DNA of 64,000 nucleotides, taken from the NCBI GenBank assembly GCA_002737445.1, contig NSIR01000002.1, forward strand, positions 124,001 to 188,000. The letters are read 5' to 3'. The notes under the pieces were generated by a model, which was not told the DNA's origin, did no database searches, and saw nothing but the letters and a program-made list of their open reading frames with translations. The translations under genes were made by a program, and so were the position numbers. Source of the stretch: Nitrosarchaeum sp. (GTDB lineage: Archaea > Thermoproteota > Nitrososphaeria > Nitrososphaerales > Nitrosopumilaceae). Of the stretch, positions 1,718 through 18,990 are shown piece by piece; the first letter of the stretch is position 1, and each line of letters begins with the position of its first letter.

Positions 1718-3114
1718 CGATACTTGTAATGTTGTTCAATTTCAGAATCTTCATTGTATCTTGTTTCTTCAATTTCAACAAATTTAGTTAATTCTTCATC
1801 AGTGTTAATACTCAATTCACGTGCATCCCATTTAGATTCAATCAAGTAAGCAATCCATGCTCTTACTTGGTATGACATTTTTCTTGATAATGGTTCTAAA
1901 AATCCCTCAATAATGGTTCTTTCAGCTTCCGCCTTAGTCAAACATCTACTTCTAAGATAGAAAATTTGTTCCTCATCAATTTGAGCAACTGATGCAGAAT
2001 GTGTTGCCTTTACATCATTAGTAAAAATCTCTAATCCAGGTATGGAATCAGATTTTGCGTCTTTATCAAGTAAAATGGAACGACCTGACAAAAAAGAATT
2101 AGATTTTGTAGCTTTTTCTTTAATTCTAATCATTCCTTTAAAGAGAGATTTGGATTTATTTCTAAGAATAGATTTTTCAACGACTCTACCGTCAGTGGAT
2201 GGACTTTCATGAGTTACATTTGTCTGAATATCAAAAGATTGTTCATTGTTTCCAAATATTACTTCAGAATCATTAGCAGATGCACCAGTTCCATTAAGGA
2301 AATATTCAATTTTGTATCTAGACAACATACAACCAAACAAACCAGAATACCAATTAACTTTTGAATCTCGTCCCAGGTCAGTTCTACGAGTAGAAAAATT
2401 CACAGTTGTTTGATCCATCATTTGCAATGTTGTAAAATCAAGTTGTGCGTTTTGTGCAAGATTTGTATTTAATAATTCAAGATATGCCTGTTGTTTATCT
2501 GCTTTTGATGAATACAGTTCCTGAACAATTGTAGCTTTACTACTTTCATCTACAAATATAATATTTCTAGAAATAGTTGAAATACCATCAGAAGATAAAC
2601 ACGATAAAATATGAATTGGTTTTTCCAATATCATATTACGTGGTATATGAATAAATATTCCAGAATTAAATGCAGCATTATTTAGTGCAGTAAATTTATC
2701 TTCAGATGAATTTGATGCCTCTAATGCTTTTTTTACTAGTTCAAAATTATTTTTTATTGCATCATGTATGGATGTGATAACTAGCCCTTTTGATTTTAAT
2801 TCATCAGAAATGTGGATTTTGTGTATATTACTACCAATTTGAATAATGCATGTTTCTTTTTCTAATTCATGCAATCGTTTTTGAAGAAAAACTGGAATTG
2901 TATTAGAAGTAGAAATTGAAAAAGAAACTTGTTGTGGATCCATTCTTTTTGCATCAGTGTATTTGTTGTATAGTGGTGATGTCTCTATTGGTAAAGCATC
3001 ATAGATAGATAATGAATTCTGTCTATATTTTTTAAGCCAATCAGGTTCATTTTGGGATAAAGAAATTTCGTCTATATGACCAGAATTAATTGTGGATAAA
3101 GTTTCTTGGGACAT
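1714..3114 (-). CDS. sufD: Fe-S assembly scaffold subunit SufD
   Basis: 466-residue protein with the SufB/SufD beta-helix core, roughly residues 140-430. It contains the FKGMIRIKEKA and GLEIFTNDVKATHSASV segments that mark the family. It pairs with SufB in the SufBC2D complex. Compared with the neighbouring SufB it is more divergent and its N-terminal third is different, as expected of SufD. ATG start at 3114, 27 bp after the sufB stop, same strand and probably the same transcript. SufC, the ATPase partner, is not in this window. Paralogy to SufB is visible directly in the shared C-terminal pattern ending with a DEEQIFYLRSR-like stretch. Confidence 0.93.
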   Translation of the reverse strand: MSQETLSTINSGHIDEISLSQNEPDWLKKYRQNSLSIYDALPIETSPLYNKYTDAKRMDPQQVSFSISTSNTIPVFLQKRLHELEKETCIIQIGSNIHKIHISDELKSKGLVITSIHDAIKNNFELVKKALEASNSSEDKFTALNNAAFNSGIFIHIPRNMILEKPIHILSCLSSDGISTISRNIIFVDESSKATIVQELYSSKADKQQAYLELLNTNLAQNAQLDFTTLQMMDQTTVNFSTRRTDLGRDSKVNWYSGLFGCMLSRYKIEYFLNGTGASANDSEVIFGNNEQSFDIQTNVTHESPSTDGRVVEKSILRNKSKSLFKGMIRIKEKATKSNSFLSGRSILLDKDAKSDSIPGLEIFTNDVKATHSASVAQIDEEQIFYLRSRCLTKAEAERTIIEGFLEPLSRKMSYQVRAWIAYLIESKWDARELSINTDEELTKFVEIEETRYNEDSEIEQHYKYR

Positions 3115-3141
3115 GATTAATCTAAATTGAAATTTATGGGT

Positions 3142-4542
3142 TTAGCCCACTGAATCGTCCATCTCTAATTTTATGAGTCTGTTTAACTCTACAGCATATT
3201 CCATTGGTAATTCTTTTGTAAATGGCTCCATGAATCCATTGACAATCAAAGATAATGCTTCTTCTTCAGTGAAACCTCTAGTCATAAGATAGAAAATTTG
3301 TTCATCGCCAATTTTTCCCACCGTTGCTTCGTGTGTGATTGTGGCATCTTCTTGATTAATTTCCATGTATGGATATGTATCAGTTTTTGATGTGTCATCT
3401 AACAACAATGCATCACATCTTACAGTAGATTTTACACCAGTTGCACCTTTAGCAACATTGAGTAATCCTCTATATGTAGAACGTCCATCTAATCTGCTGA
3501 CAGATTTTGAAGTAACTTTAGATGTAGTGTTTGGTGCAAGATGTACCATTTTAGCACCTGTATCTTGATGCTGTCCTTTTCCTGCAAAAGCAATAGAAAG
3601 GGTTTCGCCGTATGCTCTTTCACCTAACAAGTAAATTCCAGGATATTTCATTGTAAGTTTACTACCAATGTTACCATCAATCCATTCAACGGTTGCACCC
3701 TCGTATGCATAAGCACGTTTTGTTACAAGATTGTAAACATCACTGCTCCAATTTTGGATTGTTGTATATCTTAATTTTGCATCTTTGTGTGCTACTAATT
3801 CAACAACTGCTGAATGTAATGATTCTGAAGAATAGACTGGTGCAGTGCAACCTTCAATGTAATGAATTTCAGAACCTTCATCAGCAATGATTAGTGTCCT
3901 TTCAAATTGTCCAATGTTTTCAGCATTAATTCTAAAGTATGCTTGCAGGGGCATGTCAACTTTGACTCCTTTTGGAATATAGATAAAAGAACCACCACTC
4001 CAAACTGCACTGTTTAATGCTGCAAATTTGTTATCCTCTGGAGGAATTATTTTACCGAAATATTTTTTGAAAATTTCAGGATGTAGTTTTAATGCAGAAT
4101 CAGTATCAATGAATAAAACGCCTTGTTTTGCTAAATCTTCTCTCAAACTATGATAAACAACTTCGGATTCATATTGAGCTCCAACACCTGCCAAGAATTT
4201 CTTTTCAGCTTCTGGAATTCCTAATTTATCAAAAGTAGCTTTAACTTCAGCTGGAACATCATCCCAATTCTTTTCAGTTTTTTCAGTTGCCTTTGCATAA
4301 TAGTAAATATTTTGAAAGTCAATGTGACTAAGATCTCCACCCCAGGTAGGCATTGGTTTTTGCATAAAAATATCATAAGAACGCAATCTAAAATCAAGCA
4401 TCCATTGTGGTTCATCTTTCATTGTACTAATCGCAATAACAGTGTCTTTTGAAAGACCTTTTTTGCTAAGATGCACATATAGATCTGTTGAATCTTTAAA
4501 ATCATACTTTGAATAATCCATGTTTAGATTTTCAGTAGCCAC
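3142..4542 (-). CDS. sufB: Fe-S assembly scaffold subunit SufB
   Basis: 466-residue SufB, the cluster-building subunit of SufBC2D. Strong family segments include [31 protein letters not shown] and [17 protein letters not shown]. The start is GTG (MATENLNMD) at 4542; an alternative ATG lies seven codons inside. A TATA-like box at 4561-4570 lies only about 24 bp upstream of the GTG, which would put transcription initiation at or next to the start codon, so a leaderless message is likely. This makes sufB the first gene of the minus-strand suf operon sufB-sufD-Rieske-sufS-sufU. sufC must be encoded elsewhere. Confidence 0.96.
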
Positions 4543-17124: not shown

Positions 17125-18513
17125 TTAATCTAGCCAAGATCCTGGGTCTGATCGATTTGAATTTGAACCTGAATCTTGTGGAGCTTCTCTAATTTTCATG
17201 ATTCCCTCCTTGATCAAATATTGTATTCCTTGAACGAATGCTTCATCATCAATGGAACCATCTGCCCACCAATTTGCATTATTTTTAATCCATGATGGAA
17301 TTGTAGATTTATCAGAGGATTTGTTTGCAGAATCACCATTCTTTGAAGAGATTGGAATATCTATTTGGAGATAATCAAGTGAGTTTGATGGAACTATTCC
17401 AGGTGGAGATAATCCATACACATAAACCACAAAGTGTGCAGTTCCTGGAGATTCTTGAACAATCATGTCAATTGTAGCCAATCCTGATGGAGAATACAAA
17501 TTGGAGTATCCTTGATCTTTAGCAATAGAACGCATTGGTGGAAGAGTAAATTTGTTATCTACAACTAGAAGATCATATTGGACTTGATTTAAAAATTGAG
17601 TATCATGGTATTTACTAAGAAAATTAAATTGCCATTTCATTGGACAGCCTTTTACAGGATATTCAGGACTGTAATATGCATGAATTTGATAAGTGAAATC
17701 TTTGGTGGGTTTCTTTATAAAATTAGTTAGAGTGTCAGTTTTTGGACAATTTTGCAATTCCGGTTTCTCACTATCAGATACAACATTACCAAATGGATCC
17801 TTGACTACATTTTGTTTATAATCTAATAATTTGAATTGGTATTCGGGCGGAGGGATTCCAGATGAAACATGTGTATATGTTTGAGCTTTTACTGGAAATG
17901 GAAATCCATCTACTACCCAAACTCTACTAATTGCTCCACCTGTTTTCCATGATACCAATACGGTATCATATGTTCCAGCTGGAACTGTAACTTTTTCAAT
18001 TGCTGTTGGAATTATTTGTTCACCACCAATGTTTCCAATTTTACCCCATGATTTAGCAGAGAATTTTTTTGGTCCTTTATCATGACCTTCATAATATCCA
18101 TTTGCAAAAGCGGATAGCCATACAATAGATGACTTGAATGCTCCTCGATAAACAGAAAGATCTGAACTTCCACCAGAAGGCTCTGGTGCCAATTTTCCCA
18201 AATCCATTTCACCTTTTACGACTTTGTTGCCATCATAGACAACAACTTCTGTAAGCCATTTAGATTCAGTTCCATCCATTATGTCACCTTTAATCCAAAT
18301 ATCCATTTCAAATGGAGCACATTCTTTGTAATCAACATGACACATTGAATATGAAAAATAATCGCCTTTTTTTAGACCAATACCGGCATACCAAAGTGGA
18401 TCATTTGGAAGAGTGACACCACCTGCTTGAAATTGTGCTGTTGCATGAGGTAAAGGAATGCTTCCTAAAATTAGTATTCCCATAATTAATAATGCTAAAA
18501 ATGTTTTTTTCAA
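17125..18513 (-). CDS. Secreted protein with thaumarchaeal C-terminal WIKNNANWW module
   Basis: 462 residues. A clear signal peptide (KK, then a hydrophobic run to about residue 25, ending PHATAQF) sends it outside. The middle is beta-rich and unassigned. The C-terminus near residue 405-440 holds PSWIKNNANWWADGSIDDE followed by FVQGIQYLIKEGIMKI, a module I know from many exported proteins of Nitrosopumilus-like archaea, where it is often paired with copper-type or protease domains. There is no membrane anchor after it. TTG start at 18513. The substrate or ligand is unknown. Confidence 0.85.
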   Translation of the reverse strand: MKKTFLALLIMGILILGSIPLPHATAQFQAGGVTLPNDPLWYAGIGLKKGDYFSYSMCHVDYKECAPFEMDIWIKGDIMDGTESKWLTEVVVYDGNKVVKGEMDLGKLAPEPSGGSSDLSVYRGAFKSSIVWLSAFANGYYEGHDKGPKKFSAKSWGKIGNIGGEQIIPTAIEKVTVPAGTYDTVLVSWKTGGAISRVWVVDGFPFPVKAQTYTHVSSGIPPPEYQFKLLDYKQNVVKDPFGNVVSDSEKPELQNCPKTDTLTNFIKKPTKDFTYQIHAYYSPEYPVKGCPMKWQFNFLSKYHDTQFLNQVQYDLLVVDNKFTLPPMRSIAKDQGYSNLYSPSGLATIDMIVQESPGTAHFVVYVYGLSPPGIVPSNSLDYLQIDIPISSKNGDSANKSSDKSTIPSWIKNNANWWADGSIDDEAFVQGIQYLIKEGIMKIREAPQDSGSNSNRSDPGSWLD

Positions 18514-18561: not shown

Positions 18562-18570
18562 AAATATATA
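18562..18570 (+). promoter_or_regulatory. TATA box for the miniprotein at 18593
   Basis: AAATATATA is centred about 27 bp before the ATG at 18593, predicting a leaderless message. Confidence 0.55.
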
Positions 18571-18592: not shown

Positions 18593-18757
18593 ATGTGTGA
18601 ATGCCCAAAAGTACACATGTATGAAGTGGAGTTTAAGCTTGACGGAATGACGGTAGTTCCAACTCACAAAAATTGTGGTTTTGGATTAGATGAAAAACAA
18701 TCAGACAAATTTCAAAAAGAATTAGTAAAATCATGGGGCTTTGAACAAGAAGAATAA
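18593..18757 (+). CDS. 54-residue miniprotein with CxC start, unknown
   Basis: ATG at 18593, TAA at 18755. The protein begins MCECPKVHMYEVEFKLDG, has a third cysteine at residue 32 (NCGFG), and ends with a helical acidic tail. Three Cys and two His (C2, C4, H9; H29, C32) could form one metal site. The TATA box 27 bp upstream supports real expression. It is convergent with a cysteine-rich minigene 36 bp away. Too short for most gene callers; no family recognised. Confidence 0.65.
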   Translation: MCECPKVHMYEVEFKLDGMTVVPTHKNCGFGLDEKQSDKFQKELVKSWGFEQEE

Positions 18758-18793
18758 ATTAAAAATAAAATAAAAAATGTAACAACTAATAAT

Positions 18794-18937
18794 TTAGAGT
18801 TGTTTTACTGCTTCTTTACAAACGTCAGTTTTACATTTGCAATCTGCGCTGCATATACAATGACCTTGCATATCACAATCGCATGAATATGTTGAATCGC
18901 CTGTATCGGCTTCGCAGCCACATGCTTGATCTGTCAT
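18794..18937 (-). CDS. Metallothionein-like cysteine-rich miniprotein (47 aa)
   Basis: ATG at 18937, TAA at 18796-18794. It has nine cysteines in 47 residues, eight of them in four CxC pairs (CGC, CDC, CIC, CKC) plus a last Cys at 40, and one His at 26. This is the composition of a metallothionein that wraps several Zn, Cu or Cd ions in thiolates; a chaperone or Zn-finger role is also possible. Marine ammonia oxidisers use copper heavily, so metal storage or detoxification fits. I do not match it to a named family. Confidence 0.7.
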   Translation of the reverse strand: MTDQACGCEADTGDSTYSCDCDMQGHCICSADCKCKTDVCKEAVKQL

Positions 18938-18990
18938 GAATAGAAGATCAAATCACTTATTTTAAAAGGTTAGGATATGCGTTCAAAAAG

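Follow-up and report, generated by a model that had tools for sequence, protein, structure and literature searches.

The Nitrosopumilaceae, one family of ammonia-oxidising archaea, harbour a lineage-wide metallothionein-like protein of 47 amino acids, together with a predicted membrane-tethered version of it; the protein is real and, as far as was searched, undescribed. It was studied in a window of 64,000 nucleotides, the whole stretch of Nitrosarchaeum sp. DNA that was analysed, from an archaeal genome (G000) of 1.19 Mb that is 99% complete. On balance the protein would be a lineage-specific cytosolic buffer of Cu(I) or another soft metal, with a membrane-fused version in relatives, a role that we hold with somewhat more confidence than doubt. 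An earlier note on this DNA had described a minus-strand protein of 47 residues with nine cysteines, eight of them in four CxC pairs, facing a plus-strand protein of 54 residues that starts with CEC and carries further possible ligand positions. Both descriptions were found to be correct (Table 1).

Table 1 Features of the convergent gene pair and its surroundings in the window
Feature	Position	Strand	Basis
47-aa metallothionein-like gene	18794..18937	-	homologues, invariant Cys, dN/dS
54-aa gene, start MCEC	18593..18757	+	homologues, dN/dS, ligand conservation
36-bp A/T-rich gap between convergent stop codons	18758..18793	.	sequence
TATA box (TTTTAAAA) of 47-aa gene	18960..18967	-	sequence and upstream alignment
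TATA-like box (AAATATATA) of 54-aa gene	18562..18570	+	sequence and upstream alignment

The nine cysteines of the 47-aa protein (residues 6, 8, 19, 21, 27, 29, 33, 35 and 40) make up 19% of its length and follow the pattern C-x-C-x10-C-x-C-x5-C-x-C-x3-C-x-C-x4-C, in which the pairs CGC, CDC, CIC and CKC are followed by one single cysteine; all four CxC motifs are conserved. In being very small, rich in cysteine and built of CxC repeats it resembles a metallothionein in the operational sense of the term, and it would by that sense bind several metal ions in a thiolate cluster. The metallothionein-like character proposed earlier was to be checked by cysteine conservation in relatives, and it withstood that check: all nine cysteines and Asp20 are invariant in 38 aligned homologue rows, hand-picked from a set of distinct sequences, 50 of them free and 19 fused. 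Only the first loop varies in a second way, having 9 or 10 residues, the sole two spacings among 111 distinct nine-cysteine cores; the pattern used to collect these cores itself requires the cysteines and allows slack in two loops, so that this count speaks for spacing only. An AlphaFold2 model of the protein, considered with regard to the zinc-finger-like fold that encloses the cluster in SmtA-type metallothioneins, showed no confident fold (pLDDT 56, pTM 0.29).

That this small frame might be a chance cysteine-rich ORF rather than a gene is suggested by its size and by the lack of a database family, and can nevertheless be dismissed almost entirely. A dN/dS of ~0.09 (Nei-Gojobori, 2621 pairs) indicates that purifying selection on the gene is strong, and the ratio for the 54-aa gene is ~0.035 (1844 pairs); for both genes the pairs were restricted to 4-20% difference and dS of 0.1-1.5. 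One reading frame in the window has at least three CxC motifs per 45 residues, while in 30 Markov-resampled copies of the window no frame rose above two, which places the observed frame beyond chance. Promoter sequences point the same way. The TATA box ahead of the 54-aa gene, mentioned in the earlier note, is indeed present, and an equally good one, absent from that note, precedes the 47-aa gene at 23-30 nt ahead of its ATG, a spacing that suits a leaderless mRNA. Every one of 111 distinct sequences upstream of the 47-aa gene has only A/T at positions -28 to -24 (consensus AAcCTTTTAAAA), and of 126 distinct sequences upstream of the 54-aa gene 98-99% have A/T at positions -29 to -27. Conservation, dN/dS and TATA boxes at a fixed distance together make translation of both genes very likely, and the in-frame fusions described below likewise argue against a chance frame.

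Homologues of the 47-aa protein were found by six-frame protein search in 179 of 200 Nitrosopumilaceae genomes, representing 22 of 22 genera. A profile of the family matched 52/52 family genomes against 0/149 others in a sample of the order, and 44/44 against 0/256 others in a sample of the phylum. The protein is restricted, in these samples, to the Nitrosopumilaceae. No viral copies of the 47-aa or the 54-aa protein were found in IMG/VR, where one search used a single close homologue as query and could have missed distant viral copies. Several copies may occur in one genome: G067 has three nine-cysteine genes, two of which lie on opposite strands of locus L073 (3027-3158 and 7609-7740) at a distance of ~4.5 kb, while the third is on a different contig.

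Part of the nine-cysteine matches in the six-frame search of family genomes lie in frames of ~460 amino acids. These larger proteins have a hydrophobic stretch at the N-terminus and a single further hydrophobic segment that is followed by Lys/Arg residues; a linker then leads to the nine-cysteine module at the C-terminus. The fused copies in the 38-row alignment keep all nine cysteines, and no Pfam match was obtained for the membrane part. Signal-peptide and positive-inside rules predict the orientation of membrane proteins, and by these rules the fused module probably faces the cytoplasm. In the phylum sample the fused form occurs in a frame of more than 400 residues in 24 of 44 family genomes, and in one more with an in-frame stop. 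Within the genus of the window a nine-cysteine tail on the membrane protein was found in 14 of 18 genomes, three (G000, G120 and G125) bear LPKGF-type tails instead, and one is without any membrane-protein copy found. The copy of the window genome lies outside the window (L226 2584-4050, at ~23.1-24.5 kb of contig C6) and ends in ...GSLPKGF...KGTLPKGF; similar LPKGF/MPKGW tails are present at L096, L097, L099, L101 and L102.

The first-loop spacing also bears on the history of these tails. The 10-residue spacing, commonest among free copies, occurs in 5 of 31 distinct fused tails and the 9-residue spacing in the other 26, a set that omits the likewise fused L079, missed by the filter. Tails with the 10-residue spacing at L031, L078 and L079 begin M-x-DQACGC, as the free gene does. 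These starts, together with the split in spacing, suggest that the nine-cysteine tail arose at least twice; the tree is poorly resolved. Gene conversion between free and fused copies was also considered and not established, as DNA identity is 80-97% within six genomes and 82-95% between species.

Sequence comparison placed the 47-aa protein in no known family. Pfam and NCBIfam profile searches gave no family, and a PDB sequence search returned no relative at E up to 1. Like SmtA and the Pseudomonas metallothioneins (PF02069) it is small, presumably cytosolic and rich in cysteine, and the metallothionein of P. fluorescens is reported to have nine cysteines as well (PMC7387436). Unlike these proteins, it has only CxC spacing, no conserved histidine and no confidently predicted fold. 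PF02069 gave no match to it at E up to 1, so membership of the SmtA type was rejected; this profile exceeded its curated cut-off in 0 of 31 genomes, with sub-threshold matches elsewhere, while controls, Synechococcus elongatus among them, matched. MymT of mycobacteria, reported as a small copper metallothionein for which binding of as many as six Cu(I) is predicted, resembles the 47-aa protein as a small cysteine-rich ORF that was once left unannotated (PMC7558416). It is also reported to be necessary for copper resistance (PMC7558416); the two proteins are set side by side here by description only.

The copper-storage protein Csp is likewise a cytosolic thiol-based copper store and has been reported in N. 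viennensis (PMC7785015), but differs from the 47-aa protein in being described as a tetramer-forming four-helix bundle (PMC7558416). A possible role as a cytosolic copper carrier would also bring the protein near CopZ/Atx1 (HMA, PF00403). Membership of the HMA chaperones was rejected as the PF00403 profile gave no match, and so was that of Csp, which we take to correspond to DUF326 (PF03860), a profile that did not match either. Proteins of the CopZ type are reported to have a single copper site (PMC7558416), and none with an HMA domain was detected in the window genome. By size and composition the 47-aa protein would work like a metallothionein, and by sequence it is not of the SmtA, HMA or Csp type. 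No published metallothionein from ammonia-oxidising archaea was found in a search that covered few subscription papers.

Ammonia-oxidising archaea are described as copper-dependent (PMC7785015, PMC13003922), and CopA1, CopA2, CopZ and a Csp have been reported from the related ammonia oxidiser N. viennensis (PMC7785015). Profile searches of the window genome, in contrast, detected neither an HMA domain (13 of 14 control genomes match) nor the P-type ATPase domain PF00122 (14 of 14 controls match), nor a DUF326 copper-storage protein. In the order sample PF00122 was found in 23/52 family genomes against 134/149 outside the family, and HMA in 14/52 family genomes. DUF326 was found in 0/52 family genomes and matched 15 genomes of family f8 and one of f9; the sensitivity of this profile is limited, with 16/201 genomes and 1/14 controls matched. 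The 29 family genomes without a PF00122 match, the window genome among them, include no HMA-positive one, and all 52 carry the cysteine protein. In these 29 it is consequently the sole detected system of these four. Each of the 27 listed among the 28 HMA matches in the family falls in a frame of 810-845 aa, so that a free chaperone was not seen in the 52 family genomes; in f8, probably Nitrososphaeraceae, 26 genomes among at least 48 have an HMA frame of 56-104 aa.

It is the lack of HMA, PF00122 and DUF326 matches in many family genomes, set against the CopA, CopZ and Csp of N. viennensis, that favours copper buffering. The cysteine protein would not be a simple replacement, however, since 23 of 52 family genomes have both it and the P-type ATPase domain, by which a strict anticorrelation of the two is ruled out. 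Nor does the lack of a free chaperone demand the cysteine protein, because in six f2 genomes of the order sample, which have no cysteine protein, HMA is confined to ATPase-sized frames. Since the protein is restricted to one lineage, few evolutionary events underlie the correlations with copper, and the related genomes are not independent. Also, no gene for a metal-responsive regulator was noted next to the 47-aa gene, which counts against the copper-buffering reading.

The facing 54-aa protein carries H8, H25 and C28 as further possible ligands besides the cysteines of its MCEC start. It was found by six-frame search in 179/200 family genomes and 22/22 genera, and its profile matched 110 of 201 genomes of the order sample. 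These matches include other families, which indicates that the 54-aa family is the older one. The 29 rows from the family show no change at C2, C4, H8, H25 or C28. All 16 homologues from outside (L198-L213) retain C2, C4 and C28; H8 is missing from seven of them, and position 25 holds His in 14 and Cys in the other two. In the homologue of genome G019 (L214) C2, C4, H25 and C28 are all gone. C2, C4, H25 and C28 thus form the four co-conserved Cys/His ligands expected of a zinc site, and the exchange of His for Cys at position 25 together with the joint loss of four ligands points to a CxC...(H/C)xxC site that probably holds one metal ion. The metal-binding nature earlier ascribed to this protein thereby becomes probable for a single ion.

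The 54-aa protein was modelled as a beta-hairpin with a helix (pLDDT 71), and Foldseek found no significant match to this model in the PDB (best E 0.49); a PDB sequence search gave two chance-level matches only, and no Pfam or NCBIfam family was found. The ligand-less L214 homologue, near 3061-3216, keeps the rest of the sequence in a longer frame of 131 aa. Near 2916 of L212 a domain of the 54-aa type is followed in frame by a zinc-ribbon-like CxxC...CxxC stretch.

The earlier note had presented the two genes as a pair, and they could work as a single unit, such as a metal sink and a small metal-sensing regulator belonging to it. Of the best 80 named loci among 189 found, 78 indeed keep the convergent arrangement; the stop-to-stop gap is usually 27-42 bp, falls within 20-44 bp in 77 of these 78 and is 146 bp in one. 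The probable metal site of the 54-aa protein also speaks for a unit. A joint function is nonetheless improbable, and the claim of a functional pair was not supported. The 54-aa family occurs in other families without the cysteine protein, and no frame of 30-200 aa with at least three CxC in 45 aa was found near the 54-aa gene at L198-L213. The two genes of G019 are ~120 kb apart, and there the 54-aa protein has lost its ligands whereas the cysteine protein has kept all nine cysteines. At L191 and L194 the 54-aa gene is kept and the cysteine gene was undetected at that place; both loci are from named MAGs, the bin label of L191 beginning with PNGco_C. Conserved synteny suffices to account for the pairing. 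The pair is adjoined in the window by a 462-aa predicted exported protein without a Pfam match (17125-18513, minus strand), and as a relative of it flanks the 54-aa gene in L194 too, the neighbourhood is old.

Of the other readings of the 47-aa protein, one in which zinc or cadmium is the main metal, bound as M3Cys9 or M4Cys9 in a zinc store or detoxifier like SmtA and Pseudomonas metallothionein, is the likeliest, though still improbable. Nine cysteines also suit Zn/Cd clusters, and in the P. fluorescens metallothionein nine Cys and one His are reported to bind three Zn or four Cd, as Zn3Cys9His and Cd4Cys9His (PMC7387436). The window copy has a histidine beside Cys27, and Asp20 is invariant; that histidine is not conserved, however, being replaced by E, S, T, A or Q elsewhere, PF02069 was undetected, and copper is favoured by the copper-rich biology and by the copper systems that are missing. 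It is considerably more doubtful that the protein is a thiol redox buffer or a carrier of an iron-sulphur or other cofactor and stores no metal. Its cysteines are invariant, and scavenging of oxidants by small cysteine-rich proteins is stated for metallothioneins (PMC7387436), but CxC repeats at fixed spacing, the lack of the CxxC spacing of ferredoxins and the retention of every cysteine in copies fused to a membrane protein speak against it.

In the preferred reading, copper buffering, the nine cysteines would enclose a few soft metal ions in a small cluster, with Cu(I) as the most probable metal. Acting as a buffer or sink, the 47-aa protein would then limit free copper in cells that are rich in copper enzymes. 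In many cells of the family it may do the work that elsewhere falls to a CopZ chaperone, to a copper-storage protein and to a P-type ATPase for copper export, and in many relatives the fused copy would bring such a cluster to the membrane. Metal binding, the identity of the metal, the buffering role and the orientation of the tail are all inferred. To our knowledge the CopZ/CopA route is near-universal for cytosolic copper. More tentatively, and with doubt prevailing, the family as a whole might handle cytosolic copper by its own metallothionein and not by CopZ/CopA, using a free copy that buffers Cu(I) and one tethered at the inner face of the membrane, which would hand on or capture copper at the site where the copper enzymes of ammonia oxidation are assembled.

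In oceans and soils, ammonia-oxidising archaea rank among the chief oxidisers of ammonia. They depend heavily on copper, and how they keep this copper safe is poorly known. If confirmed, the present protein would be a lineage-wide metallothionein in archaea that also exists in a membrane-tethered form, and it would give direct access to the way in which copper limits nitrification or is toxic to it.
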